From a virus, in the IMG/VR virus record IMGVR_UViG_3300031722_000008, positions 96,541 to 160,540 of that record: a DNA stretch of 64,000 nucleotides. One strand, written 5' to 3'. Under the pieces are notes generated by a model. It ran no database searches. It was not told the DNA's origin and saw only the letters and a program-made list of their open reading frames with translations. Below, in pieces: positions 614 through 20,152 of the stretch (position 1 is the stretch's first letter; each line of letters starts with the position of its first letter). The translations under genes were made by a program, and so were the position numbers.

Positions 614-3600
614 ATGGCATGCAAATTTTATCAGTTACACGATCATACAGAGAAAAGCTTAAATGATGGTATGATTAAAGTTAAAAAGCTTGCAAAGAAA
701 TTAAAAGAACAGGGCGTAGATAAATTTGCTGTTACTGAACATGGAGAAATGATGGATATGCCCGCAGCGTATTTAGCGCTTAAAGATGAAGATATCGAAC
801 TTATCGTTGGAATGGAAACATATGTTGCTCCAAGAAAAAGAAGTGATAAGGAAAAAAGCGAAGGTGATGATGCTAATTATCATCTAGTACTTCTTGCGGA
901 AAACAACGAAGGCTATGATAACCTTAAAATCCTTGCATCTGAAGCTGCACTGAACGGATTTTACTATAAGCCTAGAGTAGATAAGGAACTTCTTAGACAA
1001 TACCATAAGGGCATCATAGCATCAAGTGCTTGTCTTGGAGGAAGTATAAATCAATTCCTTTTAGAAGATAAATATGAAGAAGCTAAATTAGAGGCTCTTG
1101 AATATTTAGATATATTTGGTGAAGGGAATTTCTTCTTAGAACTTCAAAGGCATGGACTTAGAGAACAAGAGCAGATTGAGCCTATGATTCTTAGATTAAG
1201 TAGAGAAACTGGAATACCACTCATAGCAACTAATGATTGTCATTACCTAAATAAAGAAGATTGGGAAGCTCACGATATACTTATGGCAATTCAAGCAGGA
1301 ACAACTATTGATGATACTAAGAGAAAAATTTATACTTCTCATGAGTTTTATGTAAAGTCTCCCGAAGAAATGATTCATCTGTTTCGTGACGTACCCGAAG
1401 CTATAGAAAACACCGTAAGAATAGCAGATAGGTGTCACGTTGAATTAGAATTTGGAGTTAATAAAATACCACCATTCAAACTTCCAAATGGATACAAAGG
1501 CACGGAGAATGATTTTTTAAGGGAAATAGTTGAAGGCAATGCTAAAATAAAATATTCAGGAATATCAGAAGAAGTTCAAGAAAGAATAGATTTTGAACTT
1601 GAAGTAATTGAAAGAATGGGATATGTAAACTACTTCCTTATTAATTGGGACTTCTTTAGATTCTGTAGAGAGGGTACTTATGAAATAGAAGATGCTCCAA
1701 ATACTGATTGGGACCCAATACTAACAGGTCCTGGTAGAGGTTCGGGAGCTGGATCAATAGTTGCTTATTGTACTGATATTACTAAAATTGAACCACTCCA
1801 GTTCAATTTATTATTTGAAAGATTCTTATCGCCGGAAAGAGTATCAATGCCGGATATCGATAGTGATTTCGAAGATACTCGAAGACAAGAAGTTATTGAT
1901 TATGTTGTATATAAATATGGAAGAGAATGTATATCTCAAATAATAACTTTTGGAACACTAGCAGCGAGAGCAGTAATAAGAAGAGTGGGGAAAGCATTGG
2001 ATTATCCATACGCAGTATGTGACAAAATAGCAAAATCTATACCTGCAGAAGTTGGAATAACAATAGAAAAGGCACTGGCAGTAAATCAGTCACTTAGAAA
2101 AGCATATGATACTGATAAGAGTATAAAGCGCTTATTGGACTTCTCTATGCAATTAGAAGGTTTAGTTACTAGTTGTAGTACTCATGCGGCAGGAGTACTA
2201 ATAACTGATAAGAAAGGTGTTACAGCCCATGTTCCTTTATGGGAAAATAAAGGTGGAATTGTTGCTCAATTCTCTAAGGATTATATTGAGATGCTAGGAC
2301 TTCTTAAGATGGATTTCTTAGGACTTGGTACATTAGGTATTCTTGGTGATGCAAAAAGAATGATTAGAGCAAATCATGGAGTTAATATTGATTTTGATGA
2401 ATTATATAAACTACCAACAATGGAACCACTACAACTTATAAGGGATGGAAAGACTGAATGCTTATTCCAATTAAATGGAGCAGGTATGACAGCATTTATG
2501 AAAGAATTAAAGCCAAACAGTATAGAAGATATAATTCTAGGTATCTCTATGTACAGACCAGGACCTATGGCTGAAATACCAAAACTTCTATATAGTAAAA
2601 GAAATCCTAATAGTATCACATATGAGGTTGATGGACTTAAATATATTCTTGACCCTACTTATGGAAGTATTGTATATCAGGAACAATGTATGCAAATAGT
2701 TGTTGCGATAGCAGGATTCTCTAAGGCAGACAGCGATAACTTTAGGCGTATTATATCTAAGAAGAAATTAAAAGAAATGCCAAAACAACGTGAATGGTTC
2801 GTTCATGGAAGAAAGAAAGATGATTATGATTATGAAGGGCATCTTAGGCACTACAAAGCAGATATACTAGGAGGAGTAGCTTTAGGTCATAGCGAAGAGG
2901 CACTGAATAAGTTATTCGATAAGATGGTTGACTTCGCCGCTTATGCTTTCAATAAATCCCATGCTGCTGCTTATGCTTTTGTTGGATATTTAACTGCATG
3001 GTTTATGAAATATTATCCTGTAGAATTTATGGCTGCTAATCTTAATGCTGTTCAAAAGAATAGAGCCAAGATTGCGCGGTATATGAATTATGCAAGGAAA
3101 GAATTGAATCTCGAAATTTTAGAGCCTGATATAAATGAATCAGTAGAAAGATTTAAAGCTACAAAAGATGGAAAGATAATGTATACTCTATCAATAAAAG
3201 GAGCATCTATTGATTGTTTAAAGAGAATAGTCGAAGAAAGAGAAACTAATGGTAAATTCGAGAATCTTATCGATTTTATAGCTAGAACGAGAAATTTCCT
3301 AGATAAAAAGACTTATGAGGGATTAATAGGATCAGGAGCATTAAAATGTTTTGGAATAATAAAATCTCAACATTTAGCAGCACTTGATGATTTCTGGGAT
3401 GGATGCCTTAAGAAAACTAAAGATTCCGAAAAGAATGCTTTAAAGAAAAACAAAGACTTTAATTTCGAAGAAATATTGCTAGGAAAAATAGATGGATTAT
3501 TACCAAATATAAATGAATATCCTAAAGATATAGATTTAAGACTTGAAAAAGAGTTCCTAGGAATGTATCTTACTGATAATCCATTATACAGATATGCATA

Positions 3601-4165
3601 TACTATCAAGACTAGCAATAATTTTGAGTTATCTGATGTTGATTATGAAGTTGATGAAGAGACTGGAATTATAATGATGTCGAATGATTCAGTGAGAGAT
3701 AGACAGAAAGTTAGATTTGTAACCATACTAAATGATGTAGCTGAATTAACAACAAAGAAAAAGACTTTAATGGCAAGGCTAGAATTAGAGGATTTAACAG
3801 GAATAGCTGGAGCTTTAATTTGGCCATCAACGTATGATTCAATCAAAAGTAAATTAAAGAAAAATGAAATCTACATGTGTCATGGCTACTTAATGGTATC
3901 ATCAGATGAAGCACCAACCATTGTCGTTGAGGATATGGAACTTATGGAAGAAATGGTTACAGAAAGAGCAATCATTTCAGTTGATAGTAAAGAAGATGCT
4001 GTTGATATCATTAATTACATTAACGATACTGATATGGCAAAAGGTATGACTCCGGTTTATCTAGTTTACAATAATCTCCAAACATTACTAACTAGGAATT
4101 ATTGGATAAACTTAAATCATATGAATCAAAAATATGAAAATAAAATTAAAATAAAGATTTGGTAG
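614..4165 (+). CDS. dnaE: DNA polymerase III alpha subunit, DnaE type
   Basis: Replicative polymerase of about 1183 aa, the usual DnaE length. The N-terminal PHP domain shows H-D-H (9-11) and TEHGEM (41-46). The palm carries GPGRGSGAGS near 370 and the catalytic PDIDSDF at 413-419. YRPGPM and FNKSHAAAYA follow, both family hallmarks. An OB-fold segment lies near 1030-1115. There is no inserted 3'-5' exonuclease domain, so it is DnaE rather than PolC. The start at 614 has AGGAGGG 7 nt upstream; an in-frame start at 539 would overlap the previous gene and lacks such a site. No clear clamp-binding pentapeptide was seen in it. It would copy the phage genome, probably with the host clamp and clamp loader, since neither was recognised in the window. 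Confidence 0.95.
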   Translation: MACKFYQLHDHTEKSLNDGMIKVKKLAKKLKEQGVDKFAVTEHGEMMDMPAAYLALKDEDIELIVGMETYVAPRKRSDKEKSEGDDANYHLVLLAENNEGYDNLKILASEAALNGFYYKPRVDKELLRQYHKGIIASSACLGGSINQFLLEDKYEEAKLEALEYLDIFGEGNFFLELQRHGLREQEQIEPMILRLSRETGIPLIATNDCHYLNKEDWEAHDILMAIQAGTTIDDTKRKIYTSHEFYVKSPEEMIHLFRDVPEAIENTVRIADRCHVELEFGVNKIPPFKLPNGYKGTENDFLREIVEGNAKIKYSGISEEVQERIDFELEVIERMGYVNYFLINWDFFRFCREGTYEIEDAPNTDWDPILTGPGRGSGAGSIVAYCTDITKIEPLQFNLLFERFLSPERVSMPDIDSDFEDTRRQEVIDYVVYKYGRECISQIITFGTLAARAVIRRVGKALDYPYAVCDKIAKSIPAEVGITIEKALAVNQSLRKAYDTDKSIKRLLDFSMQLEGLVTSCSTHAAGVLITDKKGVTAHVPLWENKGGIVAQFSKDYIEMLGLLKMDFLGLGTLGILGDAKRMIRANHGVNIDFDELYKLPTMEPLQLIRDGKTECLFQLNGAGMTAFMKELKPNSIEDIILGISMYRPGPMAEIPKLLYSKRNPNSITYEVDGLKYILDPTYGSIVYQEQCMQIVVAIAGFSKADSDNFRRIISKKKLKEMPKQREWFVHGRKKDDYDYEGHLRHYKADILGGVALGHSEEALNKLFDKMVDFAAYAFNKSHAAAYAFVGYLTAWFMKYYPVEFMAANLNAVQKNRAKIARYMNYARKELNLEILEPDINESVERFKATKDGKIMYTLSIKGASIDCLKRIVEERETNGKFENLIDFIARTRNFLDKKTYEGLIGSGALKCFGIIKSQHLAALDDFWDGCLKKTKDSEKNALKKNKDFNFEEILLGKIDGLLPNINEYPKDIDLRLEKEFLGMYLTDNPLYRYAYTIKTSNNFELSDVDYEVDEETGIIMMSNDSVRDRQKVRFVTILNDVAELTTKKKTLMARLELEDLTGIAGALIWPSTYDSIKSKLKKNEIYMCHGYLMVSSDEAPTIVVEDMELMEEMVTERAIISVDSKEDAVDIINYINDTDMAKGMTPVYLVYNNLQTLLTRNYWINLNHMNQKYENKIKIKIW

Positions 4166-5991: not shown

Positions 5992-6750
5992 ATGAATAAT
6001 AAGAAAGTTTCGACACTAATAGTCATATCATTATTGGCAACCTATAGTGTTGGCGCTACTTATGAATCGCATAGGCAAAGCGTAATTAAACAAGCAACCA
6101 TAGAAAGAGAAGAAACACTTAGAGAGAACATGGAAAAAGAATTAAGCGACGCACGCATTGAAAGTGATACTAATAAGGAAAAGTTAGCCGAATTAGAATC
6201 TCAAGTGCAAGAAAAAACCAATGCATTGGAGTTAGCCAGGCGAAGTATTGAACTCCTTAATACAAGAGTAGAGTTTGATTATAATGATGTAACAAAACCT
6301 TCCCATGCAACTAATATTGATATGAGAAGGGTACTTAAAGGAACTAAAATGTATGATATAGCTGATGCAATAGTTTCTGCTGAGGAGCAATACAAGAATG
6401 TGAATGCTTTTCTCCTTGCAGGAATAATTGCTCAAGAATCAAGTTGGGGAGGAAGTGATAGAGCTGTATATGATAACAACTTAACTGGTTATGGTGTTTA
6501 TAATCCTGCAAGCAGGGGAATTAATCCTAATAGCAGATACCAAAGTGTTATGAATACAGCCAAATTACTTAGTCGAGATTATCTAACCCCAGGAGGAGAA
6601 CACTACAACGGAGTTAGCTTAATAGCTGTGAATGAAAAGTACTGCTATCAAAAGGATATGAAGACTGTTGATTATAGATGGACATCTGGAATATCAAGTA
6701 TAGCTAATGACTTAGTGAAAAAAGCAAATAGTTATAAGAAGGAGAGATAG
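5992..6750 (+). CDS. Exported or membrane-anchored coiled-coil protein with glucosaminidase-like domain
   Basis: Residues 4-24 are a hydrophobic signal peptide or anchor after MNNKK. Residues 30-92 form a coiled coil. Residues 117-250 read as a glucosaminidase/lysozyme-like fold, with AGIIAQESSWGGS (probable catalytic Glu149), NNLTGYGVY, and a final SISSIANDL-like helix. This is the family that cleaves the peptidoglycan glycan strand. It sits in the replication region, away from the lysis cassette, directly after the ATPase lobe with its own GGAGG site. It could remodel the wall early, or act as a non-catalytic wall anchor. Catalysis is not proven by the sequence. Confidence 0.7.
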   Translation: MNNKKVSTLIVISLLATYSVGATYESHRQSVIKQATIEREETLRENMEKELSDARIESDTNKEKLAELESQVQEKTNALELARRSIELLNTRVEFDYNDVTKPSHATNIDMRRVLKGTKMYDIADAIVSAEEQYKNVNAFLLAGIIAQESSWGGSDRAVYDNNLTGYGVYNPASRGINPNSRYQSVMNTAKLLSRDYLTPGGEHYNGVSLIAVNEKYCYQKDMKTVDYRWTSGISSIANDLVKKANSYKKER

Positions 6751-6755
6751 TTGAT

Positions 6756-7214
6756 ATGGAATTTTGGGTAGATAAATTCACTTTTGAAATAAAAGATTTA
6801 ATTGAAAAAAAGAGAAAACTTATAGCAGAAAGAGATAAGATAAGAGGTAATTTCAAAGCTGCTGAAGCATATTTTACCAAGATAGGCAGTAAGCAAGAAA
6901 TCCAACTTGGAGCAGAAAGAATGTTAGAATTATCTAAGAAATTTTTAGAGATAGATAATGAGATTTCAGATATAGATATAGTAATTGCATCTAATCTTGA
7001 AATCTACCTAGGCAATTTTACTGCAAGAGTTAAAATGCCAGATAGATTGAATGATGCTGGTGATTTAATAAGACATGATTGTGTATATGCAGTTCCGTTT
7101 AAATCCGGCGATGAAAACTTAAAGGAAGTTGTACCTGACGATATATGGTTCTTGAAACTTATCAAAACTGCATTTAAAGCTACCAATGTTACATTTATTG
7201 AAAAGGAAGAGTAG
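6756..7214 (+). CDS. Hypothetical protein with N-terminal coiled coil
   Basis: A 152-aa protein. Residues 10-75 are a charged helical hairpin with coiled-coil character; the rest is mixed alpha/beta with no recognised motif. It follows the glucosaminidase-like gene by 5 nt, with GGAGAG upstream, so it is probably co-transcribed. No function assigned. Confidence 0.75.
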   Translation: MEFWVDKFTFEIKDLIEKKRKLIAERDKIRGNFKAAEAYFTKIGSKQEIQLGAERMLELSKKFLEIDNEISDIDIVIASNLEIYLGNFTARVKMPDRLNDAGDLIRHDCVYAVPFKSGDENLKEVVPDDIWFLKLIKTAFKATNVTFIEKEE

Positions 7215-8999: not shown

Positions 9000-9944
9000 A
9001 TGATAATTAATAATGAAAACTTCGGAGAAGTTGTAGCAAAAATGTTAAGGGCGGCATCAGAATATCACAAGGCAGAGAGATTTGATACTTGTGGTATTAT
9101 TTTTGACAAAGATGATAACTCATTAAAACTAATCTCAGTTTGGTTCTTTGTTAGAGTTACAAATGTAAAGATTGAAATTGATATTCCTAGAGGAAAGCCA
9201 TTTTATAATGTTTTAGGAAAAGTATGGACAGAAATTCCTTATGAGAAACCAGTTGAATATTACATGGAAAAAAGAGCTGAAAGTTATAACTTCGTAGGAA
9301 GAACAGAATACTATGCAAATAATATATTAAATATTATCAACAAGGAAACTGAGAAAGTATTGGATTTAAGAGCAAGATATGTATTTGTTCAAGGATTTTT
9401 ACCTCAAGGCTGTGCAGCAATAACTTTCAAAGAAGAAAATGGAAAGCCAGTATTTAAAGCGCCTAAGATACCAAAGAAATTTGTCATTGATGAAAATTCA
9501 GCAATTCCTGAAAAATTTGTTCAACCTGGGATTACTTATGCATGTACATTAAATGATTGCGGAGATACTGTAACTCTTGATGTAATAACAAAATTCGGAA
9601 AAACTAGATCAGGTATGTTCGTTTCAGAAGTTAAGTATGATAGTAAATGCCTACCTAGATTAAATAATTTAGAAATAATTCACCCTGAACTAACTGTATG
9701 TTCTAATATATTAGAAACATCAGATGAAGAAATTAATATGCCACCAATACATCTAGGTGCTATGTTATTGTATGATTTGCTTAAAATACTTTTAATTTGC
9801 AAAACATCTAAATTCAACCTACATTATCAAGAAAAAATAAATGATGATATATGGATAGAATCTGTACCAGAAGATGATGATGACGCAAAAGTATCTATAT
9901 TCTTCCCTCCTTATGATTACTATAAAAATATTCAAAGAGGATAA
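9000..9944 (+). CDS. Hypothetical protein heading the paralogue array
   Basis: A 314-aa mixed alpha/beta protein with a GGAGG site. It is the first gene after the structured leader and lies directly upstream of seven related acidic genes, 4 nt before the first of them. The C-terminus is acidic then aromatic (EDDDDAKVSIFFPPYDYY). No motif identified. A fold such as a processivity factor was considered because the next genes carry clamp-like peptides, but nothing in this sequence shows it. Confidence 0.7.
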   Translation: MIINNENFGEVVAKMLRAASEYHKAERFDTCGIIFDKDDNSLKLISVWFFVRVTNVKIEIDIPRGKPFYNVLGKVWTEIPYEKPVEYYMEKRAESYNFVGRTEYYANNILNIINKETEKVLDLRARYVFVQGFLPQGCAAITFKEENGKPVFKAPKIPKKFVIDENSAIPEKFVQPGITYACTLNDCGDTVTLDVITKFGKTRSGMFVSEVKYDSKCLPRLNNLEIIHPELTVCSNILETSDEEINMPPIHLGAMLLYDLLKILLICKTSKFNLHYQEKINDDIWIESVPEDDDDAKVSIFFPPYDYYKNIQRG

Positions 9945-9948
9945 ATAA

Positions 9949-10494
9949 ATGCAAGAGGATTACCTAACAATGATTATAGCTAAAGACAAAAACTTATGGC
10001 CTAATCCTGAGAATATAGATGTTGAAGATATAGATAAATCCATATTTAACTACTTGGAAGAAAGAGAGCATTTAAATACTCCTAGGAATCAAGAGAAATT
10101 CTCAGAAACAGTTAACGATTTTTATCACATGGCACAAGAAGAATTTTTCGAAGAGAACGAAGAATACTTGATTCCTTCGCCACAAATAATTAGCGATATG
10201 ATAGATGAAGAAAACATCAATATCATATCGCTATTTGTATTAGATACAGAAAAAAGAAATAGCGAGGATAGGATAGAGAATATAATTAATATTTATATAA
10301 AAGAAATATCCTCTCAACTATTATATTCTGTCATAGAAGCATTAGATACTCTAGGACTACCCTTCTCCGATAAAGATCATCCAAATGATAAGGCAGTATC
10401 GGAGGTGAGAAATAAATGCTTTTATGACCCTTATCAAATAAGAATGTTTGGAGATGAAATATATGACAGAAGGAAAATTGATAGAAATTGTTAG
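9949..10494 (+). CDS. Acidic paralogue 1 with C-terminal QIRMF motif
   Basis: A 181-aa acidic protein. The shared features of this array are a helix of the type SVIEALDTLGLPF and, after it, a short strand with N/D-P-x-Q-x-x-M-F-x-D; here YQIRMFGDE with QIRMF at 163-167. Q-x-x-M-F matches the form of bacterial beta-clamp-binding peptides such as the internal site of E. coli DNA polymerase III alpha. Otherwise there is no recognised domain. Its end overlaps the next start by 32 bp. Function unknown; clamp binding is an inference. Confidence 0.7.
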   Translation: MQEDYLTMIIAKDKNLWPNPENIDVEDIDKSIFNYLEEREHLNTPRNQEKFSETVNDFYHMAQEEFFEENEEYLIPSPQIISDMIDEENINIISLFVLDTEKRNSEDRIENIINIYIKEISSQLLYSVIEALDTLGLPFSDKDHPNDKAVSEVRNKCFYDPYQIRMFGDEIYDRRKIDRNC

Positions 10495-11086
10495 CGATAA
10501 ATTACCTGATGGAGTTCAGGATTTTGACAATATAGAAAATAGAATGGTTTTGTCATGGACTGGTGATATGCCAGAAAATATGAAAGAAGTAAATGAATAT
10601 ATAATAGGGGATATATATAAGGAAGAGTGCATAAATAAACAAGGTATCCCTGAATTCGATGATCTTTTGGAAAGTGTTGATATTCTTAATTCTGAATGTA
10701 TGGCAGAGATAGCTCTCATACAAGTAGTTCAAGAATATAATGAACAAGGTATTGATATTGGAGATGTATCGGAAGAGAAACTCTCAGAAGATACAGCAGA
10801 GAAGGAAGCTGGAGTCCTAGACTTCTATAGTTATAATGGAATGATTGATACTAAACAAGAAATATTTAATTATGCTGAAGAAAAAGGTATGAGTTTCATG
10901 ATATCAAATCATACAGAGGAGTATGATAATTTTACATGGGGAATTGAAATGTCAGAAGAATCACAACTAGACATTATAGTTAATGGACCTCAAATACCAA
11001 TGTTTCCAGAATTAGCTGTAGATGAATGTGAAAATGATTTTTGTAGATACGGTGGTTTCTTTCTACATGTATCGGAGGCTGTATAA
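10463..11086 (+). CDS. Acidic paralogue 2 with QIPMF motif and N-terminal GIPEF copy
   Basis: About 207 aa. ATG 10463 is chosen because TTGGAG lies 9 nt upstream; a frame opening at TTG 10448 has no site. QIPMFPEL lies at 177-184 near the C-terminus. A second, weaker copy QGIPEFDDL (60-68) sits in the first half, suggesting an internal duplication. Very acidic. No catalytic motif. Confidence 0.7.
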   Translation: MTEGKLIEIVSDKLPDGVQDFDNIENRMVLSWTGDMPENMKEVNEYIIGDIYKEECINKQGIPEFDDLLESVDILNSECMAEIALIQVVQEYNEQGIDIGDVSEEKLSEDTAEKEAGVLDFYSYNGMIDTKQEIFNYAEEKGMSFMISNHTEEYDNFTWGIEMSEESQLDIIVNGPQIPMFPELAVDECENDFCRYGGFFLHVSEAV

Positions 11087-11791
11087 ATGAACGATATTAT
11101 TATAAGATCTGACGAAGATGAAATTGTAGACAAAAGACTAGCTGAATTAACAAATCTACTTATCGTGGATAGTGATGAGTCTTCAGAAAAATATGTCAAG
11201 GAATTAATTGAGGAATTAAATAATATACCAAAATCAGGAATACCATGCTTAAGTGATATTCTTCAACCAATGATAGATAATAACGATACTGTTATTGATA
11301 TTATCATGAAAACCCTAATAGTAAATGATAGAGTTGATATGCCAACAGATTGTGATAGAGGGGCTACAGACAGATCATCATGTGCAGAATGCGAAGAACT
11401 CTGCGAGTGCTATGAAGATTTAGATTACGAGATAAGACTTGATGAATTTCCACAATGTGATGATACTCACTTGGCATACTTATTATATTACATTCTTGTG
11501 AATACAGGTATGAGTATGATTATGGAAAAGGATGATTACAATGCGTTCCCAGACTTCTGTATGCATTTTGATTACGATAATGAGGGAATTTTATCAGACT
11601 ACTTCACTGGAACAGAAAATAAAAACAAGGTAATAGTAAATCATGCTCAACAAATGATGTTCTCTGAAATATTTATGGAAGAGAATAATCAGAATGGGAG
11701 TTGCTATTGTTATGGGCAAAACTTCGCAATAATGTTTGATAATTACAATATACAGGAAGAAAGATTAGCCTTAAAGGAAGGAGGTAAATAA
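11087..11791 (+). CDS. Acidic paralogue 3 with QQMMF motif and Cys cluster
   Basis: A 234-aa acidic protein. QQMMFSEIF is at 188-196, and the N-terminal weak copy SGIPCLSDI is at 50-58. Unlike the other members it has a Cys cluster (C89, C99, C102, C106, C108) within an acidic stretch, perhaps metal-binding. TCGGAGG lies before the ATG, and its stop overlaps the next start as TAATG. Confidence 0.7.
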   Translation: MNDIIIRSDEDEIVDKRLAELTNLLIVDSDESSEKYVKELIEELNNIPKSGIPCLSDILQPMIDNNDTVIDIIMKTLIVNDRVDMPTDCDRGATDRSSCAECEELCECYEDLDYEIRLDEFPQCDDTHLAYLLYYILVNTGMSMIMEKDDYNAFPDFCMHFDYDNEGILSDYFTGTENKNKVIVNHAQQMMFSEIFMEENNQNGSCYCYGQNFAIMFDNYNIQEERLALKEGGK

Positions 11792-12417
11792 TGTCAATAC
11801 AATTAAGAGAGGATATTTTCTCAGAATATATAGATGAAAAAAATCCAGAAATAATATATACAGCGAATCCAAATTCTTTACTTATGATAAAGGATATCAT
11901 TCTGGAACAACTTAATAACAGAGGAGAGGCTTCGTTAGAATGGATAATAAGTGATATTCATTTTGGTAATGCAAGAGTATTTGAAAATATAGCAGCTAAA
12001 GGTTTTGATACAGGGAAATTTGATATAGGTAACTTTGATAATTATGGTGATGGAATTACTGAAATGGCTGATGATATAGAACAATGGTATTTTGTTGAAG
12101 ATGAATTAACAGAATTAGAAAACCTAATATATGAGTCAGCTAAACAATTTGACTTACCTGTATATATGACAGCAGAGCAGGTAGATGAATACCCAACTTT
12201 TATAAGAAGATTCTCTGAAGAAAATTCTTATCTGGACTGCATAGCTAAAGAAAAAGAGATAAAGGTCAATGCATTCCATGCACAAATTCCAATGTTTGAT
12301 GATCTATTCGATAACTGCGGAAGTTGTTTTTATGGAAGAGAAAATGTGCTATTAATTGATGAATACAATAAAAATAGGAATTATGGATTAATGGAGGGTA
12401 GCGATGAAAGAAGATAA
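11791..12417 (+). CDS. Acidic paralogue 4 with QIPMF motif
   Basis: A 208-aa acidic protein with HAQIPMFDDLF, QIPMF at 165-169, followed by a Cys-containing tail (NCGSCFYGREN) resembling the tail of paralogue 3 (NGSCYCYGQN). Paralogues 3 and 4 are therefore probably the closest pair. GGAGG lies 8 nt before the ATG. It overlaps the next gene by 14 bp. Confidence 0.7.
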   Translation: MSIQLREDIFSEYIDEKNPEIIYTANPNSLLMIKDIILEQLNNRGEASLEWIISDIHFGNARVFENIAAKGFDTGKFDIGNFDNYGDGITEMADDIEQWYFVEDELTELENLIYESAKQFDLPVYMTAEQVDEYPTFIRRFSEENSYLDCIAKEKEIKVNAFHAQIPMFDDLFDNCGSCFYGRENVLLIDEYNKNRNYGLMEGSDERR

Positions 12418-13090
12418 ATCTCTCCGGATAATAAATCCAGACATCGATATGCTTGAAATGCAATCAGAAATTATAGGCATAAATGAAGATAATTTCGAAA
12501 GAGATAAGAACACTATATTGGAAATGTATAAATCGGAATATACGAAATATAAGGATCGCGCAAACATACCTCTTTTTTCTGATATAGAAAATTCTGTTCT
12601 CGCTTATAATTATGACAAGTGTTATGAAATATCAGTTATTGAATTTGAAACATTTGATAAAGCAGAAGTTATGAATACATTTTATAGCTCTGCTTATTGT
12701 TCCACAATGGACATAAATGATAGAATACAGGCGATACTAGATCAGAAGACAGGTAATATGATGAATGATATAGGGTGGTCACATTCCGAAGCTATAAGAA
12801 TGTGTATAAGGAATTCACTAAATGAATTGGGTGTTATTTATGAAGATAATGATCCTTGTAATCCATTCCTCCGAAATATATTTGCAGATTTTAATATTTT
12901 CAGAATAGTAGCTAATAATGCTCAAATAGTAATGTTTCCGGACATACATAGACAGGAGTATATGTATGATGCGGACTTAATCAATGATACTTTAGATGAT
13001 ATTACAAACTATGTCATAGAAAGAAGAACACAGAGCGCAATAAAAGATAGGTTGCTTGGTTCTGGGGGTGATAAAAATGTCCCAAAGTAA
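12404..13090 (+). CDS. Acidic paralogue 5 with QIVMF motif and N-terminal NIPLF copy
   Basis: A 228-aa protein. NNAQIVMFPDI contains QIVMF at 174-178, and a second motif ANIPLFSDI (53-61) matches the pattern IPxFxD[IL] of paralogues 2 and 3. The helix NSLNELGVIYED before the motif matches ALDTLGLPFSD in paralogue 1. GGAGGG precedes the ATG. Function unknown. Confidence 0.7.
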   Translation: MKEDKSLRIINPDIDMLEMQSEIIGINEDNFERDKNTILEMYKSEYTKYKDRANIPLFSDIENSVLAYNYDKCYEISVIEFETFDKAEVMNTFYSSAYCSTMDINDRIQAILDQKTGNMMNDIGWSHSEAIRMCIRNSLNELGVIYEDNDPCNPFLRNIFADFNIFRIVANNAQIVMFPDIHRQEYMYDADLINDTLDDITNYVIERRTQSAIKDRLLGSGGDKNVPK

Positions 13091-13436
13091 AGAGATAACT
13101 AAATCTATGCTCCGAAACAGAGGACTAATTATGCAAGATACGGAAAACAATACTTTTGTTGAAATCGTATCATCAAATTATATAGTTTGTATAAATCGAA
13201 GAATAAAAAAGGGACAAACTATAGTTCCTGAATATTACGAAATCAGCGACGAGTGCTTGGAGTTCATTGCTGACCATGGAATAAAAACTGTTACATGGAA
13301 CGGCATGATATTAAATGCTATGTCAGCTCTAGATTTATCATTAAAAGATGTACTTGAAGATGAAGGTTTTATTTTTGAATATAACCGAGAAATAGTGAAT
13401 CCTTATCAGCAGATTATGTTCGAGGATTTAAATTAA
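13077..13436 (+). CDS. Short acidic paralogue 6 with C-terminal QQIMF motif
   Basis: About 119 aa, apparently only the C-terminal half of the longer members. It has a helix ALDLSLKDVLEDEGFIFEYN, then NPYQQIMFEDLN with QQIMF at 111-115, four residues from the end. ATG 13077 has GGGGGTG upstream and overlaps the previous gene by 14 bp; an in-frame GTG or ATG farther up lacks a site. Confidence 0.7.
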   Translation: MSQSKEITKSMLRNRGLIMQDTENNTFVEIVSSNYIVCINRRIKKGQTIVPEYYEISDECLEFIADHGIKTVTWNGMILNAMSALDLSLKDVLEDEGFIFEYNREIVNPYQQIMFEDLN

Positions 13437-13450
13437 GGAAGGTGTAAATA

Positions 13451-13825
13451 ATGAGTAAAAGCATTATAGAAATAGAAGATAGTCAGCTTCAAAAAGAAGC
13501 TAGATGGGAGGACGTAGAAAAGATTATACTCAACACATACAATGAACTTTTTGATAAGGATAAGAAAGAACCGAGCATAAGCAGAGTATTCGATGAAATT
13601 AAATATAAGTTTGAAACTGAAGCATATGACATTATCTACGGAATATCAGCAGAAGACATTACAGAAGAAATGATAATGGTATGTCTTACGAAAAAGGGCT
13701 GTGTATTCACATGGTGCGGAACAGTATGTTGTGAAGCGCAACAAGTGATGTTTGGGGAGATATACGAACAATTAGAAGGAGATTTCATCAGCTACAATAA
13801 TAATATCATAGGTCTTCATGAGTGA
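13451..13825 (+). CDS. Short acidic paralogue 7 with QQVMF motif
   Basis: A 124-aa protein. EAQQVMFGEIY has QQVMF at 97-101, and PSISRVFDEI (near 40) may be the diverged first motif. VFTWCGTVCC just before the motif resembles TVTWNGMILN of paralogue 6. AAGGTG upstream. It overlaps the next gene by 8 bp and is the last motif-bearing member of the array. Confidence 0.7.
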   Translation: MSKSIIEIEDSQLQKEARWEDVEKIILNTYNELFDKDKKEPSISRVFDEIKYKFETEAYDIIYGISAEDITEEMIMVCLTKKGCVFTWCGTVCCEAQQVMFGEIYEQLEGDFISYNNNIIGLHE

Positions 13826-14471
13826 TATAGATAAAAGTGATGTTGTATTTAAATCTCTGTCATGTTTTAAATCCATGTTAAAATATGACAGAGTTAATCC
13901 CCAAATATTTCTTCATAATAAATCAGCTTATATGCTCGGAGAAAAAACGAAAGGAAAGATAGAATTTTTAAATAGGAGCTTTGAAACTTTAGTGGGTATA
14001 CCATTCAATAAAGGTTTCGAGTATTCAGAAAATATAACAAACAAGATTTTAAGTGAGAATATCAATATAATTAATAAGTTAGCCAGGACTTATTGCGAAA
14101 CTCTATTTTATATTGATAAGGTAAAGTTAATTAAATTCATTGACGATAATTATAATTCTTTAGCAAAGTTAAATAAAATGAAATTAACTATAACAACTGT
14201 GCCTCATATAAGGTTTAATTTTAAGCCTATAAAAAAATCTACTTCAGTGTTTGAGAGTGAATATATTATTTCAGAACCTGTAAGAGTGAGTCCAAACTTT
14301 AGAGTAAAAGATGAAGAGATTGTTTTAAATTCTCTTCTTTTTTATGAAGTTATAAATAATGAACTTTTTTCACAAATAATAAAAATGGAGATAAACAAAG
14401 AAAAGAAATTTATAAGATTAGCTTGTGTTAATGATAATGTAAAAGTTAAGTTTATAATTAACCAAAGATAA
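13818..14471 (+). CDS. Hypothetical protein after the paralogue array
   Basis: A 217-aa Lys/Ile/Asn-rich protein without the Q-x-x-M-F motif, so not clearly part of the array although its start overlaps paralogue 7. Basic rather than acidic. No known domain seen. The upstream site is weak (AGGTC), which suggests translational coupling to the preceding gene. Confidence 0.6.
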   Translation: MSDIDKSDVVFKSLSCFKSMLKYDRVNPQIFLHNKSAYMLGEKTKGKIEFLNRSFETLVGIPFNKGFEYSENITNKILSENINIINKLARTYCETLFYIDKVKLIKFIDDNYNSLAKLNKMKLTITTVPHIRFNFKPIKKSTSVFESEYIISEPVRVSPNFRVKDEEIVLNSLLFYEVINNELFSQIIKMEINKEKKFIRLACVNDNVKVKFIINQR

Positions 14472-14490: not shown

Positions 14491-14527
14491 GTGTTCGGCA
14501 AATAATGGTATCATTAACATTGAACAC
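14491..14527 (+). promoter_or_regulatory. Nested hairpin in the leader of the primase-helicase gene
   Basis: GTGTTC (14491-14496) pairs with GAACAC (14522-14527), and inside it TAATG (14503-14507) pairs with CATTA (14512-14516). It lies 25 nt before the gene start. It could be a leader structure or operator; no promoter box is clear. Confidence 0.35.
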
Positions 14528-14552
14528 TAAAAAGAGATGGGGGATTGGCACA

Positions 14553-17500
14553 ATGGATAAACTAGAATGGTACGAGAGCGTTGAAAATAAGATCAATGAA
14601 GATATTGATTTGTTTTATGGTGAGTTTTATAGCGGAGCAAAACCTAAAAAGATAGGACCTGATAGCTATAGAATTAATCCATGTCCAGTATGTGGACATT
14701 CTAATAGTTGCACATTAACAGGAAATACTGTTCATTGTTTCAGTGGTGAATGTGGATGGAAAGGAACACATATTACGGCATGGTATGAATATGCAAAAGA
14801 AAAGCTCAATTTGTCACTTTACGAGGCGGTGGCGAAGTTAGAAAAATTCACAGGATATAAGTTTCCAGCTGGAACAAAAGAAGAAATAGAAGCTTATGAG
14901 AAGCATCAGAAACAACAAGCAATTTTGAGAATTTCAGAAGATTTTTACCACAAACAGCTTTTAATATGTAATTTGACTTTTCCTTTCAAAGATAAGAGAT
15001 ACACACCACTTGATTATATGTTACAAGTAAGAAAAAGAAAGATAGAAACCTTGAAGGATTTTAAAGTTGGATTTGCTATTAATTACTTTGGATTAAGAAG
15101 TGAATTATTGGAACAAGGATTTACGAAAGAAGAAATTAAAGAAGGAAAAGCATGGCAACCAGAAGGAACTTTTGTGTTCTTCTATAGGCATCCATTAACA
15201 AAGGATATTGTAAGGACAAATATTAAAAATCCATTTGGGTCAAAATCTAAAGAAAAAAATGAGTTAGGTCAAAGTATAGATGGCGATGTTATTGTTGGAT
15301 ATTCTACTGGAAGTAAGTTTATGTATTTTCCTCCGAATTTCTCCTTCGATAAAGATATTACTATAGTTGAAGGGGAGCATGATGTATTTGCTGCCTATGA
15401 AAATGGATTTAATGTAGCTGGTGTTGGAGGACAAATAGAAAGAGAATACCAATTATCTGTATTGGATAAGGCAAAAGAAAATATAACCTTTCATACGATG
15501 TATGATAATGATGATGCTGGAAGTAAATATACTGAATTCACTAATGAATATTTTGCTGACAGGCCAGTAAAGAAAATAAAATATGATGAAGCATTCAATG
15601 ATCCTGATGAATATTTCAGAGAGTGCGAAAATCACAAATCCCTTGAAGAATTATTTGAATTTGCAGAAACATTAACTACTGACAAATATAAGATTCGCAG
15701 ACAAGGTAACTTATGGACTGTAGCAACGAGAGAAAGAAAACTTGAATTTACCATGAAAGGCAAAAATGATAAAGGTTCTTTCAGTGGAAATGCTGTATAT
15801 TATTATAATGGTCTATTAAGCGATAGAGATGATAATATACAACTCGTAAAATGCAAAGCTAAGATAAAGCCATTAAACTTTTATTTATATGACCATATAG
15901 AAGAGTATTTTAATAGTAATTTAGATAAGAAAAGCATCGATGAATTAATATTGATATATTCAATGTCAGCGAAGAAAGATGAGATAATTAAAAGATTAGC
16001 CGAAATGTTATTTGAGTCAGAAAATGATGAGTCTATTATAAATAACATGAAAGTTCAATTAAGTAAGCATGTAACGAATCATGAGAATGTTGTTGATGAA
16101 ATACTTAAAGAGGTTAATGATATACAGAATAAGGCTAATACAACATCGTTATCGAACATACCTAAAATGCGTGTTGGACAATACTACAATGTGAGAAACG
16201 GTGATGCTTATATGTATTTTACTTATGTAAAAATCGATGGTGATATAAAAAGAAAATTACCTTTCCTGCTTAGGAATGATGGAACACTAATAAGACTCGA
16301 TCTATTAAAAAGAAAGGATTCTCAATGCTTGCTTCTTATTGATAATAAGTATGAACTTCCATGGGAAATAAATGATGCTATTCTAGAACTTAATGAGTGT
16401 TGCTTGACTCAAGAATGGGTAGAGAAATATAAAGATGGCAAAATATCAGATAGTGAATTAGAACCTTCAATACTTATAAAGAGAATAGAGGGTTATATTA
16501 GGAAATTTTATTATACTAATGATTCAAATATCTACAAGGTGCTATCTCTCTATATATATTCAACCTACTCATATGAATTATTTGCACAAATACCATATCT
16601 TTATTTAAATGGTTCTAAGGGTTCAGGTAAGTCAATTCTAGATGAATGCATTAGATTATTATCCTTTAATTCAAAGATGGCTGTAGACATAACTGAAGCA
16701 GCATTATTCAGAACACTATCTGTTGAAGGAGGAGTATTAATACTTGATGAGCAGGAAAACTTAAATTCTAAAAATGCGAGAACTACTGATAGTGGTATGG
16801 CAGCAATACTGAAAGGTGGCTACGCAAGAAGTGGTGCAGTATATAGAGTTAACAATGAAAAAGGGGGCATAGTAGAGAAATATACTATCTACGGACCTAA
16901 GGTTATATCCAACATAATGGGAATGGATGATGTAATTGAGGATAGATGTATAATAATTGAAACATATGCCCTTAAATTGACTAAAGAAACTAAAATGGAA
17001 GATCCTAAATATTACGCGGAAGAAAGATTAGATGAAATAAGAGAACTCACAAGTAAATGTGCGATCTCTGCCCTGAAAAATTTCAAGACGCTATATGATA
17101 TATATAATGGTAACTTATTCGAAACAGGGAATGCACGTTTATCGCAAATACTAACTCCTATATTAGCTGTAGCTAAATTGGTTGATTTGAGAGAAAAAGA
17201 AAATGCATTATCTACTAATCCAGATATAAAAGATTATATCGGAGAATATGAAAGATCATTAATGGATTATTTTGTTATACTGAATGAGCTTAAAAAGAAT
17301 ACTGCTCAAAGTACTCCAGAGGGTATAATAAAATCTTCTGTATCTACAGTTGCAAAAGAACTCTGGGGATTAGTTCCACCTCACAATATAGAATTTATAG
17401 ATTCGTCATCACATAAATATACCGAAGCTATAAAATGCGATAAGGAGCAAGGCTGGTTCGAAATCAATGTACTTCACTTTAAATGTTTCATCGAAGAAGT

Positions 17501-17765
17501 TAAACCTGGAGAAACAGCTTATGCTAGATATATTCCTAAATGGATTAAGACTGTTTTCAAAATCGATGCATGCGATATAAAAAGAAAAGCTGTGCATATT
17601 GAAAATGAAGATTTGATGAAAGAATTTAAAGGTAATGTAAAACCTAAGGTAAACTTTTATAGGTTTTATTTTAAAGACTATATAAACATGGATGAAGCAT
17701 TTTTCGGCAACAGCAAAGAAAATGATTCAGCTATTAAGACCGATAAAGGGGCAGAACTATTTTAG
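14553..17765 (+). CDS. Primase-helicase: zinc and TOPRIM primase fused to a P-loop ATPase
   Basis: About 1070 aa. The N-terminal zinc domain of DnaG/T7 gp4 type has C44, C47, C62 and C67. The TOPRIM centre shows VEGEHD (272-277) and MYDNDDAGS (316-324), with acidic metal ligands. The C-terminal ATPase has a P-loop GSKGSGKS (687-694) and Walker B VLILDEQE (D732/E733), of a kind seen in phage and plasmid primase-helicases. Between them is an unassigned domain of about 300 aa. ATG 14553 has GGGGG upstream; an ATG at 14505 has no site. It would make primers and unwind the fork for the polymerase encoded at 614. Its 3' end is part of a terminator stem. Confidence 0.9.
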   Translation: MDKLEWYESVENKINEDIDLFYGEFYSGAKPKKIGPDSYRINPCPVCGHSNSCTLTGNTVHCFSGECGWKGTHITAWYEYAKEKLNLSLYEAVAKLEKFTGYKFPAGTKEEIEAYEKHQKQQAILRISEDFYHKQLLICNLTFPFKDKRYTPLDYMLQVRKRKIETLKDFKVGFAINYFGLRSELLEQGFTKEEIKEGKAWQPEGTFVFFYRHPLTKDIVRTNIKNPFGSKSKEKNELGQSIDGDVIVGYSTGSKFMYFPPNFSFDKDITIVEGEHDVFAAYENGFNVAGVGGQIEREYQLSVLDKAKENITFHTMYDNDDAGSKYTEFTNEYFADRPVKKIKYDEAFNDPDEYFRECENHKSLEELFEFAETLTTDKYKIRRQGNLWTVATRERKLEFTMKGKNDKGSFSGNAVYYYNGLLSDRDDNIQLVKCKAKIKPLNFYLYDHIEEYFNSNLDKKSIDELILIYSMSAKKDEIIKRLAEMLFESENDESIINNMKVQLSKHVTNHENVVDEILKEVNDIQNKANTTSLSNIPKMRVGQYYNVRNGDAYMYFTYVKIDGDIKRKLPFLLRNDGTLIRLDLLKRKDSQCLLLIDNKYELPWEINDAILELNECCLTQEWVEKYKDGKISDSELEPSILIKRIEGYIRKFYYTNDSNIYKVLSLYIYSTYSYELFAQIPYLYLNGSKGSGKSILDECIRLLSFNSKMAVDITEAALFRTLSVEGGVLILDEQENLNSKNARTTDSGMAAILKGGYARSGAVYRVNNEKGGIVEKYTIYGPKVISNIMGMDDVIEDRCIIIETYALKLTKETKMEDPKYYAEERLDEIRELTSKCAISALKNFKTLYDIYNGNLFETGNARLSQILTPILAVAKLVDLREKENALSTNPDIKDYIGEYERSLMDYFVILNELKKNTAQSTPEGIIKSSVSTVAKELWGLVPPHNIEFIDSSSHKYTEAIKCDKEQGWFEINVLHFKCFIEEVKPGETAYARYIPKWIKTVFKIDACDIKRKAVHIENEDLMKEFKGNVKPKVNFYRFYFKDYINMDEAFFGNSKENDSAIKTDKGAELF

Positions 17766-18339: not shown

Positions 18340-18369
18340 AAAACAGGAACGGTAAACGTTCCTGTTTTT
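18340..18369 (+). terminator. Rho-independent terminator
   Basis: Perfect 12-bp stem AAAACAGGAACG/CGTTCCTGTTTT (18340-18351, 18357-18368) with loop GTAAA and a T run. It lies directly after the 69-aa gene. Confidence 0.9.
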
Positions 18370-18398
18370 CATTATTTAAAAATGGGAGGAAGATTAGT

Positions 18399-19205
18399 AT
18401 GCTAATGATGTTTGGCTCTGCTTTAAGGAGGGCACCATTTGAAAGAGCAATGCCTTTCAATGACAGCGATTTGATGATACTTGTAAATCCAGATTATGGA
18501 TTTAGATTGTGTAATATTACTACTGAAGATGGCGAAAAATTTGGGATTAAAAATTTCATGATATCAGAAACTGAGGTTTCTGGACAAAAGCCAAAAGATA
18601 TATTTGGGAAAAAGCCATTCGAAGAAAGAGTTAAAGAATTTGGTGAAATCTTTAATGGGAGAGTTGAAAGATTTTTTGAAACTGAGAAGAGCGACTATAT
18701 CTTCTTTGATTTAGAGGAACAAAAATATCTAAGAAAATTAATGTCCAAAAAAGGATTGAGTTGCTCTGTTGAGATATATAAGTATCATAAAAATAAACCA
18801 CCAGAAAAAATAGAGTATCTTGATTTGCCTTATGAAGAAGCAATCATGATAACTAAATTTTTATCATCGTGCAAAGTTAGAACTGTTTTAAATTGCAGAG
18901 ATTATTATTATATGAACAAGGCCAATCATGAAAAAAGTAGGGAAAGGCGTTCAAAATATAGTAATTTTAATAATAAAAGGGATAGTGAAATGGAAATTCT
19001 ATTCAATAGGTACAAGCAGTTAAGGGATTTGACAAGCAAAGAAAGAGTTGATAAGTATTTCAAGGCACTTACTGTTAAGTATCATCCTGACAGAGAGGGA
19101 GGTGACGCAGAAATATGCGCAACCATCAGAGAAGATTTTGGAAATATTAAGGAAGGCAGATGGTATATAAATCTTAAGGATAAAGAGGATGGGGGCGAAA
19201 AATAA
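18399..19205 (+). CDS. J-domain (DnaJ-like) protein
   Basis: A 268-aa protein. The C-terminal part has the J-domain signature: helix II KYFKALTVKY, then HPD at 229-231 and REGGDAEICATI as the start of helix III. HPD is the residue triplet that stimulates Hsp70 (DnaK) ATPase. Helix I may be EMEILFNRYKQLRDL (198-212). The N-terminal 190 aa is unassigned and may bind a client. GGGAGG lies before the ATG. It would recruit host DnaK, perhaps for replication or assembly of a phage complex. Confidence 0.7.
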   Translation: MLMMFGSALRRAPFERAMPFNDSDLMILVNPDYGFRLCNITTEDGEKFGIKNFMISETEVSGQKPKDIFGKKPFEERVKEFGEIFNGRVERFFETEKSDYIFFDLEEQKYLRKLMSKKGLSCSVEIYKYHKNKPPEKIEYLDLPYEEAIMITKFLSSCKVRTVLNCRDYYYMNKANHEKSRERRSKYSNFNNKRDSEMEILFNRYKQLRDLTSKERVDKYFKALTVKYHPDREGGDAEICATIREDFGNIKEGRWYINLKDKEDGGEK

Positions 19206-19837
19206 TGAATATGGACGACATGATTAATCAGCTGAATCAGCAATATGAGGAAGTTGATTCCAAGGAAACTGTTAAAGAAGAGAAGATAGATCTCAATGAA
19301 ATATTAAAAGCTAATGAAATTACCGAGAAATGGTTGGATGAAGAAAGAGAGTTCCAAAAGAATTCTAAGGATGATAATTTCAGTAAAGATGCATTTACTA
19401 AGAAAAGAAGTTCTTCTTATGAGAAGAAAGAGGAAAAGAAAGAGGAGAAACGAAGTTCGTATGGTTATTATAAGAGCAGTGAAGACGAAAAGAAATCCTC
19501 ATATAGCAGCAAGTACAGTTCTTCATCTTCTTCAAAGAAGAGTTCTGACGATATTTTCTATGAGAAAGTGGAAAATGCATTTATTGAAAAAGTAAATAAA
19601 ATGGTGGATGGATTATTCGATAAGAATCTAAATAAAATAGAACATGAAGGCGAGTGGGATATGCTAGACCTTCAATATGAACTTAACAGAAAAAGGATTA
19701 CTGATAGGGATTATGAGGATAAAATCATCACAAAAGAATTTAATAAAGCTATGGAAAAGCATAGCAATAGTTGTTCAAGAAAAGTTGATATAGCCGAATT
19801 AATGATACTATTAAAAGTTAATCCACATAGATATTAA
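19205..19837 (+). CDS. Low-complexity Ser/Lys/Glu-rich protein
   Basis: A 210-aa protein whose start overlaps the stop of the J-domain gene by one base, so the two are coupled. Residues 60-120 are disordered-looking runs of Ser, Lys, Glu and Tyr. The C-terminal 90 aa is a helical domain (from FYEKVENAF onward). It is a plausible client or partner of the J-domain protein by position only. Confidence 0.7.
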   Translation: MNMDDMINQLNQQYEEVDSKETVKEEKIDLNEILKANEITEKWLDEEREFQKNSKDDNFSKDAFTKKRSSSYEKKEEKKEEKRSSYGYYKSSEDEKKSSYSSKYSSSSSSKKSSDDIFYEKVENAFIEKVNKMVDGLFDKNLNKIEHEGEWDMLDLQYELNRKRITDRDYEDKIITKEFNKAMEKHSNSCSRKVDIAELMILLKVNPHRY

Positions 19838-19858
19838 TAAAATTTAGGAGGAATTGTA

Positions 19859-20152
19859 ATGGGTTTTTTAAAGAAGATAGGTAAAAGAATAACAGGCAAT
19901 GTAAAAAAAGATATTGATTATTTGAGAGGTGAGGGGGCTGATGAAAAGGCTGACCTAGTTTATGACAGAATCAAATCTTTCCTTTCAGGTGGATGGAATA
20001 TAATGATAGACAAGATAGTTAATTTATTGTTAAAATCAGCAGAGAAAGATGTTAGAATAATAATATCAGAATGTAAGGCTCATGGTGTTGATCCATATGA
20101 ACGTTTTCCAGCAAATTTAAGAGATAAATTGAAAAAGAATTACGCAATGTAA
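19859..20152 (+). CDS. Small basic helical protein
   Basis: A 97-aa protein with N-terminus MGFLKKIGKR, an amphipathic basic helix, a hydrophobic helix (IMIDKIVNLLLKSA) and a basic end. AGGAGG precedes the ATG. The stop codon lies inside the right arm of a 16-bp terminator hairpin. Function unknown; membrane association is likely from the helices. Confidence 0.7.
   Translation: MGFLKKIGKRITGNVKKDIDYLRGEGADEKADLVYDRIKSFLSGGWNIMIDKIVNLLLKSAEKDVRIIISECKAHGVDPYERFPANLRDKLKKNYAM

Follow-up and report, generated by a model that had tools for sequence, protein, structure and literature searches.

We describe an array of seven small genes in the DNA of a virus, IMG/VR record IMGVR_UViG_3300031722_000008. 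The stretch that was analysed, below called the window, is 64,000 nucleotides long and corresponds to bases 96,541-160,540 of this 160,540-base record. In the interval between the genes of a DNA polymerase and a primase there are, besides other genes, a gene for a 314-residue protein, seven genes for acidic proteins (positions 9949-13825 of the window) and a gene for a 217-residue protein, all on the + strand and tightly packed. Each of the seven array proteins carries one Q-x-x-M-F peptide near its C-terminus. We suggest, with modest confidence, that these peptides dock on a sliding clamp that the 217-residue gene is predicted to encode.

The same order, 314-residue protein, array and primase, is found in four further phages, here called G004, SKW48, L154 and L155. 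Together with the phage of the window they form a reference set of five phages and 30 array proteins. An array protein with its motif region cut away is referred to as its body, and proteins are numbered by their place in the array (SK_1, for example, is the product of gene 1 in SKW48). Matches are given with their expectation values (E). The genes of the locus in the window are:

614-4165, + strand: phage DNA polymerase III alpha, from Pfam and an alignment with six bacterial-type DnaE proteins
9000-9944, + strand: 314-residue protein of unknown function, directly 5' of the array here and in the other four phages
9949-10494, + strand: array gene 1, 181 residues, QIRMF at 10435-10449; placed first in the array of each of the five phages; best body match SK_1, E = 2e-9
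10463-11086, + strand: array gene 2, 207 residues, start ATG at 10463, QIPMF at 10991-11005; best body match L154_2, E = 1e-5
11087-11791, + strand: array gene 3, 234 residues, QQMMF at 11648-11662; weak body matches, the best with E = 0.01
11791-12417, + strand: array gene 4, 208 residues, QIPMF at 12283-12297; whole-protein match to gene 3 with E = 2e-4, weak body matches, the best with E = 0.1
12404-13090, + strand: array gene 5, 228 residues, QIVMF at 12923-12937; best body match SK_4 (SKW48 gene 4), E = 4e-5
13077-13436, + strand: array gene 6, 119 residues, start ATG at 13077, QQIMF at 13407-13421, the C-terminus being four residues away; body matches not significant, the best with E = 4
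13451-13825, + strand: array gene 7, 124 residues, QQVMF at 13739-13753; best body match SK_6 (SKW48 gene 6), E = 2e-10
13818-14471, + strand: predicted divergent two-domain sliding clamp, 217 residues, overlapping the end of the array; from a profile search and a model of its L154 relative
14505-17765, + strand: TOPRIM primase/helicase directly 3' of the clamp gene, with the C-terminus GAELF

The seven genes and the seven pentapeptides of the original prediction are all present as it described. Only two of its starts need to be changed: for genes 2 and 6 the ATG codons listed above are the most likely starts, and not the TTG codons upstream of them. The acidity that it ascribed to the proteins is also evident, with isoelectric points of 4.05-4.55 in all seven.

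To place the motif in its genomic context we used the 212 open reading frames (ORFs) of at least 60 residues in the 160.5 kb record. Q-x-x-M-F is present in eight of them: the seven array proteins and NrdD (QNDMF; assigned as NrdD by Pfam). At the DNA level the pattern for Q-x-x-M-F occurs 14 times in the record and a control pattern eight times. When the seven proteins were shuffled, at most two of the seven contained the motif in any of 3000 rounds.

Three members had also been thought to carry an N-terminal copy of the motif, IPxFxD[IL]. The segment does exist, but as a general feature of the family: among the 30 members a Pro is found in 26, a hydrophobic residue two places further on in 28, and an upstream Tyr in all 28 that are ungapped at this position. 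As the pattern is common to the 30 members, we rejected the segment as a second clamp motif; it looks like a part of a common N-terminal domain. The middle part of the proteins varies in length. In eight of the 30 the motif lies at most seven residues from the end of the protein, and this is partial evidence against a buried motif.

Searches with the array family in Pfam, PHROGs, NCBIfam and PADLOC returned nothing usable. None of the 12 members scanned against Pfam had a match above the model cut-off, and the PADLOC matches, to a 2TM effector, BrxA and two candidate models, were too weak to be considered (E = 0.002-0.014).

Of the related phages, G004 (IMGVR_UViG_3300009009_000002) was found by a capsid alignment scan, its capsid protein being 71% identical to that of the window, while L154 and L155 were found by a polymerase scan. 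SKW48 (JAOAHC010000014.1), a contig binned with a metagenome-assembled genome (MAG) of the Clostridia, was found by a primase scan. The arrays contain five genes in G004, six in SKW48, seven in L154 and five in L155. A relative of the 217-residue gene lies between array and primase in all phages but G004.

The motifs of the five arrays, in gene order, are:

Window: QIRMF, QIPMF, QQMMF, QIPMF, QIVMF, QQIMF, QQVMF; consensus QxxMF
G004: QNELF in four copies, RNVLF; consensus QNELF
SKW48: QIIMF, QTIMF, QILMF, QIFMF, QIIMF, QILLF; consensus Q[IT]x[ML]F
L154: QNILL, QNIIL, QNLLL, QNLLL, QNLLL, QNIIL, QNPLF; consensus QN[ILP][LI][LF]
L155: QSILF, QGLLF, QSIMF, QGVLF, QSELF; consensus Q[SG]x[LM]F

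Two motifs of the same phage agree on average at 2.62 of four positions (77 pairs), while two motifs of different phages agree at 1.26 (358 pairs), and none of 5000 shuffles of the phage labels was as extreme. Such a shuffle ignores kinship; the bodies, however, are not closer kin inside a phage, with a mean body score of 16.0 bits within phages and 16.5 bits between them. Of the 30 proteins, 25 have their best body match in a different phage, as do 18 of the 22 whose match has E below 1e-3. As equal distance predicts 24.7 of 30, we dropped the first of these counts as a proof of old paralogy.

The age of the duplications is better seen from individual genes. Clear orthologues across phages exist for the first gene (G4_1 of G004 and SK_1 of SKW48, E = 3e-16), for the second (L154_2 and SK_2, E = 6e-13) and for the last (SK_6 and W_7 of the window, E = 1e-10), indicating that at least these duplications predate the split of the phages. 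Genes 3, 4 and 6 of the window and most of those in L155 show only weak body matches.

Thus, the motifs of a phage resemble each other while the bodies are no closer kin there, and the natural reading is that every member of an array must fit one common partner, which would differ between phages. Recent gene conversion is another way to obtain similar motifs. In the four QNELF motifs of G004 the Gln and Leu codons differ among the copies. Over all phages, where the same residue is found within a phage, it has the same codon in 146 comparisons and a different one in 98, with SKW48 the most uniform. Selection on the peptide appears to fit better than gene conversion, which might still have acted in SKW48.

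Before any test, both proteins that flank the array had been guessed by eye to be clamps, and for the downstream one this was borne out. A profile built from its three relatives ranks the product of 13818-14471 first among the 212 ORFs, with E = 4e-12, while the next ORF has E = 0.036. The L155 member is distant (E = 0.014 by profile, E = 6e-5 against that of SKW48).

The L154 member was modelled from an alignment of four sequences. The best model has a predicted local distance difference test score (pLDDT) of 75 and a predicted template modelling score of 0.79, and the five models span pLDDT 75 to 53. At E of 0.001 or below, a Foldseek search of the Protein Data Bank (PDB) with the L154 model yielded 356 matches. 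The best 50 of 1232 PDB matches are all sliding clamps or 9-1-1 complexes, with PCNA as the best (E = 2.3e-7) and template modelling scores of 0.45-0.57. A second structure aligner placed DnaN of C. difficile first (Z = 16.1, root-mean-square deviation 3.1 over 205 residues), the match covering DnaN residues 132-362, which we take to be the region that holds the peptide pocket. In a viral structure library, phage and giant-virus clamps account for most of the named rows.

When the downstream family was aligned by hhalign with 30 DnaN proteins from the class of the SKW48 MAG, the alignment covered 118 columns with P = 0.02, and one of 150 block shuffles scored as high. The clamp models of Pfam, PHROGs and NCBIfam give no match for the family. 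Judged by the predicted structures, the downstream family very probably has the fold of a sliding clamp.

In the bacterial beta-clamp-binding motif (CBM), as described in PMC11139829, the consensus is Q-aliphatic-x-[L/M]-[F/L], or one residue longer, and position 2 is called tolerant. The array motifs have Q at position 1 in 29 of 30 cases (all seven in the window), L or M at position 4 in 28, and F or L at position 5 in all 30.

Since the adjoining gene family has a predicted clamp fold and the motif changes in step in each phage, the phage's own clamp, the product of 13818-14471, is the target that we favour, and we give slightly better than even chances to the array being a set of adaptors that would dock on it. 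Each array protein would then consist of a common N-terminal helical domain, a middle of variable length, presumably with a task or a cargo specific to each protein, and the C-terminal Q-x-x-[ML]-[FL] peptide. The latter would fit into the pocket in which the clamp from the adjoining gene receives its partners; this clamp would encircle the phage DNA, and the adaptors would bring functions to it, in the manner of gp33 and gp55 on gp45 in T4. The closeness of the motif to the C-terminus in eight of the 30 proteins is what is expected of a docking peptide. The original prediction, that the proteins bind or hijack a clamp, gains circumstantial support from the predicted clamp-fold gene next door and from the changes in step; however, host DnaN is not the likeliest target and hijacking is not favoured.

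Several observations weigh against the array as adaptors of a phage clamp. The polymerase of the phage, the first expected clamp binder, has neither Q-x-x-M-F nor a canonical internal clamp motif. In the alignment with the six bacterial-type DnaE proteins it has KDFNFEE at about the canonical site, and its relatives have KDFIFEE, SFDFEE, AFEIEK and DTTLRE. In a search of the 212 ORFs with a crude Walker A pattern, which overlooks some ATPases, no clamp loader stood out. Position 2 of the motif is aliphatic in just nine of the 30 cases (four of seven in the window), the other 21 having Q, N, S, G or T there, so that the full published consensus is found in nine of 30 motifs, and in four of seven in the window. 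Further, the conservation exceeds the five residues, often with N or D and then A or C before the Q, and with D or E and then a hydrophobic residue after the motif; with this longer context the motif may serve a fold as well.

The clamp itself adds further points of the same kind. Its fold was modelled on the L154 protein, to which the window homologue is 22% identical, and two of the five models are poor (pLDDT 59 and 53). The N-terminus of the window protein is about 25 residues shorter than those of its relatives and an in-frame TAG lies just upstream, at 13809-13811, so the first helices seem to have been lost. Finally, G004 has no recognisable clamp gene at the locus or elsewhere in its record, although this record is possibly incomplete and the clamp profile is weak on far relatives, that of L155 reaching only E = 0.014.

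The common partner could instead be another shared phage protein, most likely the 314-residue one, so that the locus would encode a multi-subunit complex unrelated to any clamp pocket. This protein directly adjoins the array in all five phages, while the clamp family is found at the locus in four. Its relatives are only 21-30% identical to that of the window, a divergence that fits a co-evolving partner, and the conservation past the pentapeptide fits as well. Aligned by hhalign with the 30 DnaN proteins, it scores above all 150 block shuffles, over 33 columns only, and could even be the relevant clamp; aligned with the downstream clamp family it gives nothing. However, peptides known to bind clamps have this form (PMC11139829), and it is the clamp-fold gene that overlaps the last array gene. 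We therefore regard a role of the 314-residue protein as the partner as unlikely.

We think it similarly unlikely that the array proteins dock on host DnaN, where they would displace host partners or bring phage functions to the host fork. The pentapeptides resemble the host-type motifs GQMSLF, GQMTLF and GQLDLF, which bacterial-type DnaE proteins encoded on gut contigs have at their clamp site, and G004 has an array but no recognisable clamp. There is also a precedent in Twort Gp168, a phage protein that binds host DnaN, though not at the CBM pocket (PMC11139829). Against this, a clamp-family gene of the phage adjoins the array in four of the five phages. A motif that changes in step and differs by phage is moreover unexpected for a host target, as host clamps share one common motif (PMC11139829).

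A structural role of the motif within the array proteins themselves, for example as a strand that paralogues exchange in a hetero-oligomer, is highly improbable: its longer conserved context, often after a stretch that by eye looks strand-like, would suit this, and paralogues binding each other would likewise homogenise the motif within a phage, but almost nothing follows the motif in eight of the 30 proteins, and docking peptides have a Q and two hydrophobic residues at the same positions.

Further collections were also searched. In 50,697 phage records tblastn found no match to two array proteins, to the L154 clamp or to the 314-residue proteins from two of the phages. The window polymerase matched 1369 phage records, and among those listed 19 of 20 are gut contigs. 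The 12 of these gut contigs that were examined show no array of this kind in the stretch available, and a bacterial-type DnaE with GQ[ML]xLF is encoded on at least six of them. A scan of 49 further polymerase-related loci, many of them short fragments, for runs of motifs revealed no such array; runs of three unlike motifs occur in five (L167, L174, L175, L176 and L199), and none is longer. Two weak primase matches were discarded as being, by eye, DnaG-type genes in unrelated surroundings. A profile of the 314-residue protein, run over 51 records before SKW48, L154 and L155 were known, had matches in two of them alone, the record of the window and G004. No report of such an array was found in excerpts of the open-licence PMC literature, including PMC11139829, PMC7892883 and PMC7824862.

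Some observations concern the phages as such. The window also encodes a tail sheath, and its capsid protein is a distant relative of that of Bacillus phage G (27%). A protein of 1796 residues at 49676-55066 of the window, by its place the tape measure, contains an endolysin-like domain (phrog_10341, E = 2e-50). In record IMGVR_UViG_3300030114_000010, from another sample, the capsid protein is identical to that of the window phage, so that this is likely the same phage; the 314-residue protein was not found there. The contig JAOAHC010000014.1 appears to be of phage origin and to have been binned into the Clostridia MAG SKW48, which is a hint at the host class and no proof. In L155 (639-4575) two ORFs, about 290 bases apart, make up the polymerase III alpha gene, perhaps owing to an inserted intron or a frame error.

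Other proteins have notable C-termini. The primase ends in LF in four of the five phages and in EF in the fifth. A Pam3 gp34-like protein at record bases 6312-7154 (E = 1e-16) and its counterparts in L247, L248 and L249 have the tails ELF, VLF and ALF in three of the four phages, while the one of L155's phage has an SSB-like tail, EDAPF. The LF tails of the primase and the Pam3 gp34-like protein may be additional clamp motifs, but by eye such tails also resemble SSB tips. A helicase with DEAD_2 and Helicase_C_2 domains (record bases 15633-17720) ends in GDEDMPF, which by eye is similar to an SSB tip. Further, a protein with RNA polymerase Rpb1 domain 5 is encoded at record bases 18354-19961 (E = 5e-38), and the phage of the window may thus carry its own multi-subunit RNA polymerase.

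It is tempting, but doubtful as a whole, to draw a wider picture. The large phages of one clade, whose hosts may be Clostridia, would possess a ring clamp together with five to seven old, non-interchangeable adaptors that all read one pocket. The docking code would be rewritten in step with the clamp, giving a private clamp language that is insulated from the proteins of the host and of rival phages. The adaptors might compete for the ring or share it, and possibly tie the phage RNA polymerase to replication. If true, a common peptide would hold a whole set of paralogues to a single partner while changing in step in all of them, and this would be a natural record of how a hub and its clients co-evolve, open to testing one peptide at a time. 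The locus also points to a clamp missed by the profile libraries tried, and provides a functional handle on an array family without a Pfam match above the cut-off in the 12 members scanned.

It remains to compare the locus with known systems. When compared with solved sliding clamps such as DnaN and PCNA, the L154 relative has the same predicted fold, aligned with DnaN residues 132-362. The downstream family differs in sequence, being 6-15% identical to the solved clamps among the matches listed, and in length, 206-255 residues, which is the size of a two-domain clamp. The array peptides share with the CBM the Q at position 1, the L or M at position 4 and the F or L at position 5, as well as a place at or near the C-terminus in eight of the 30 proteins. 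In contrast to the CBM, position 2 is mostly non-aliphatic, and the motifs resemble one another inside a phage but differ from phage to phage. From these peptides we do not class the array as a whole as a member of the CBM group, only as something that probably works like one.

Another parallel is found in T4, where a sliding clamp-binding motif tethers the transcription factors gp33 and gp55 to gp45, the clamp of that phage (PMC7892883). As in T4, phage proteins with a docking-like peptide occur together with a clamp encoded by the phage, here a predicted one. Unlike gp33 and gp55, the array consists of five to seven paralogues in one row.

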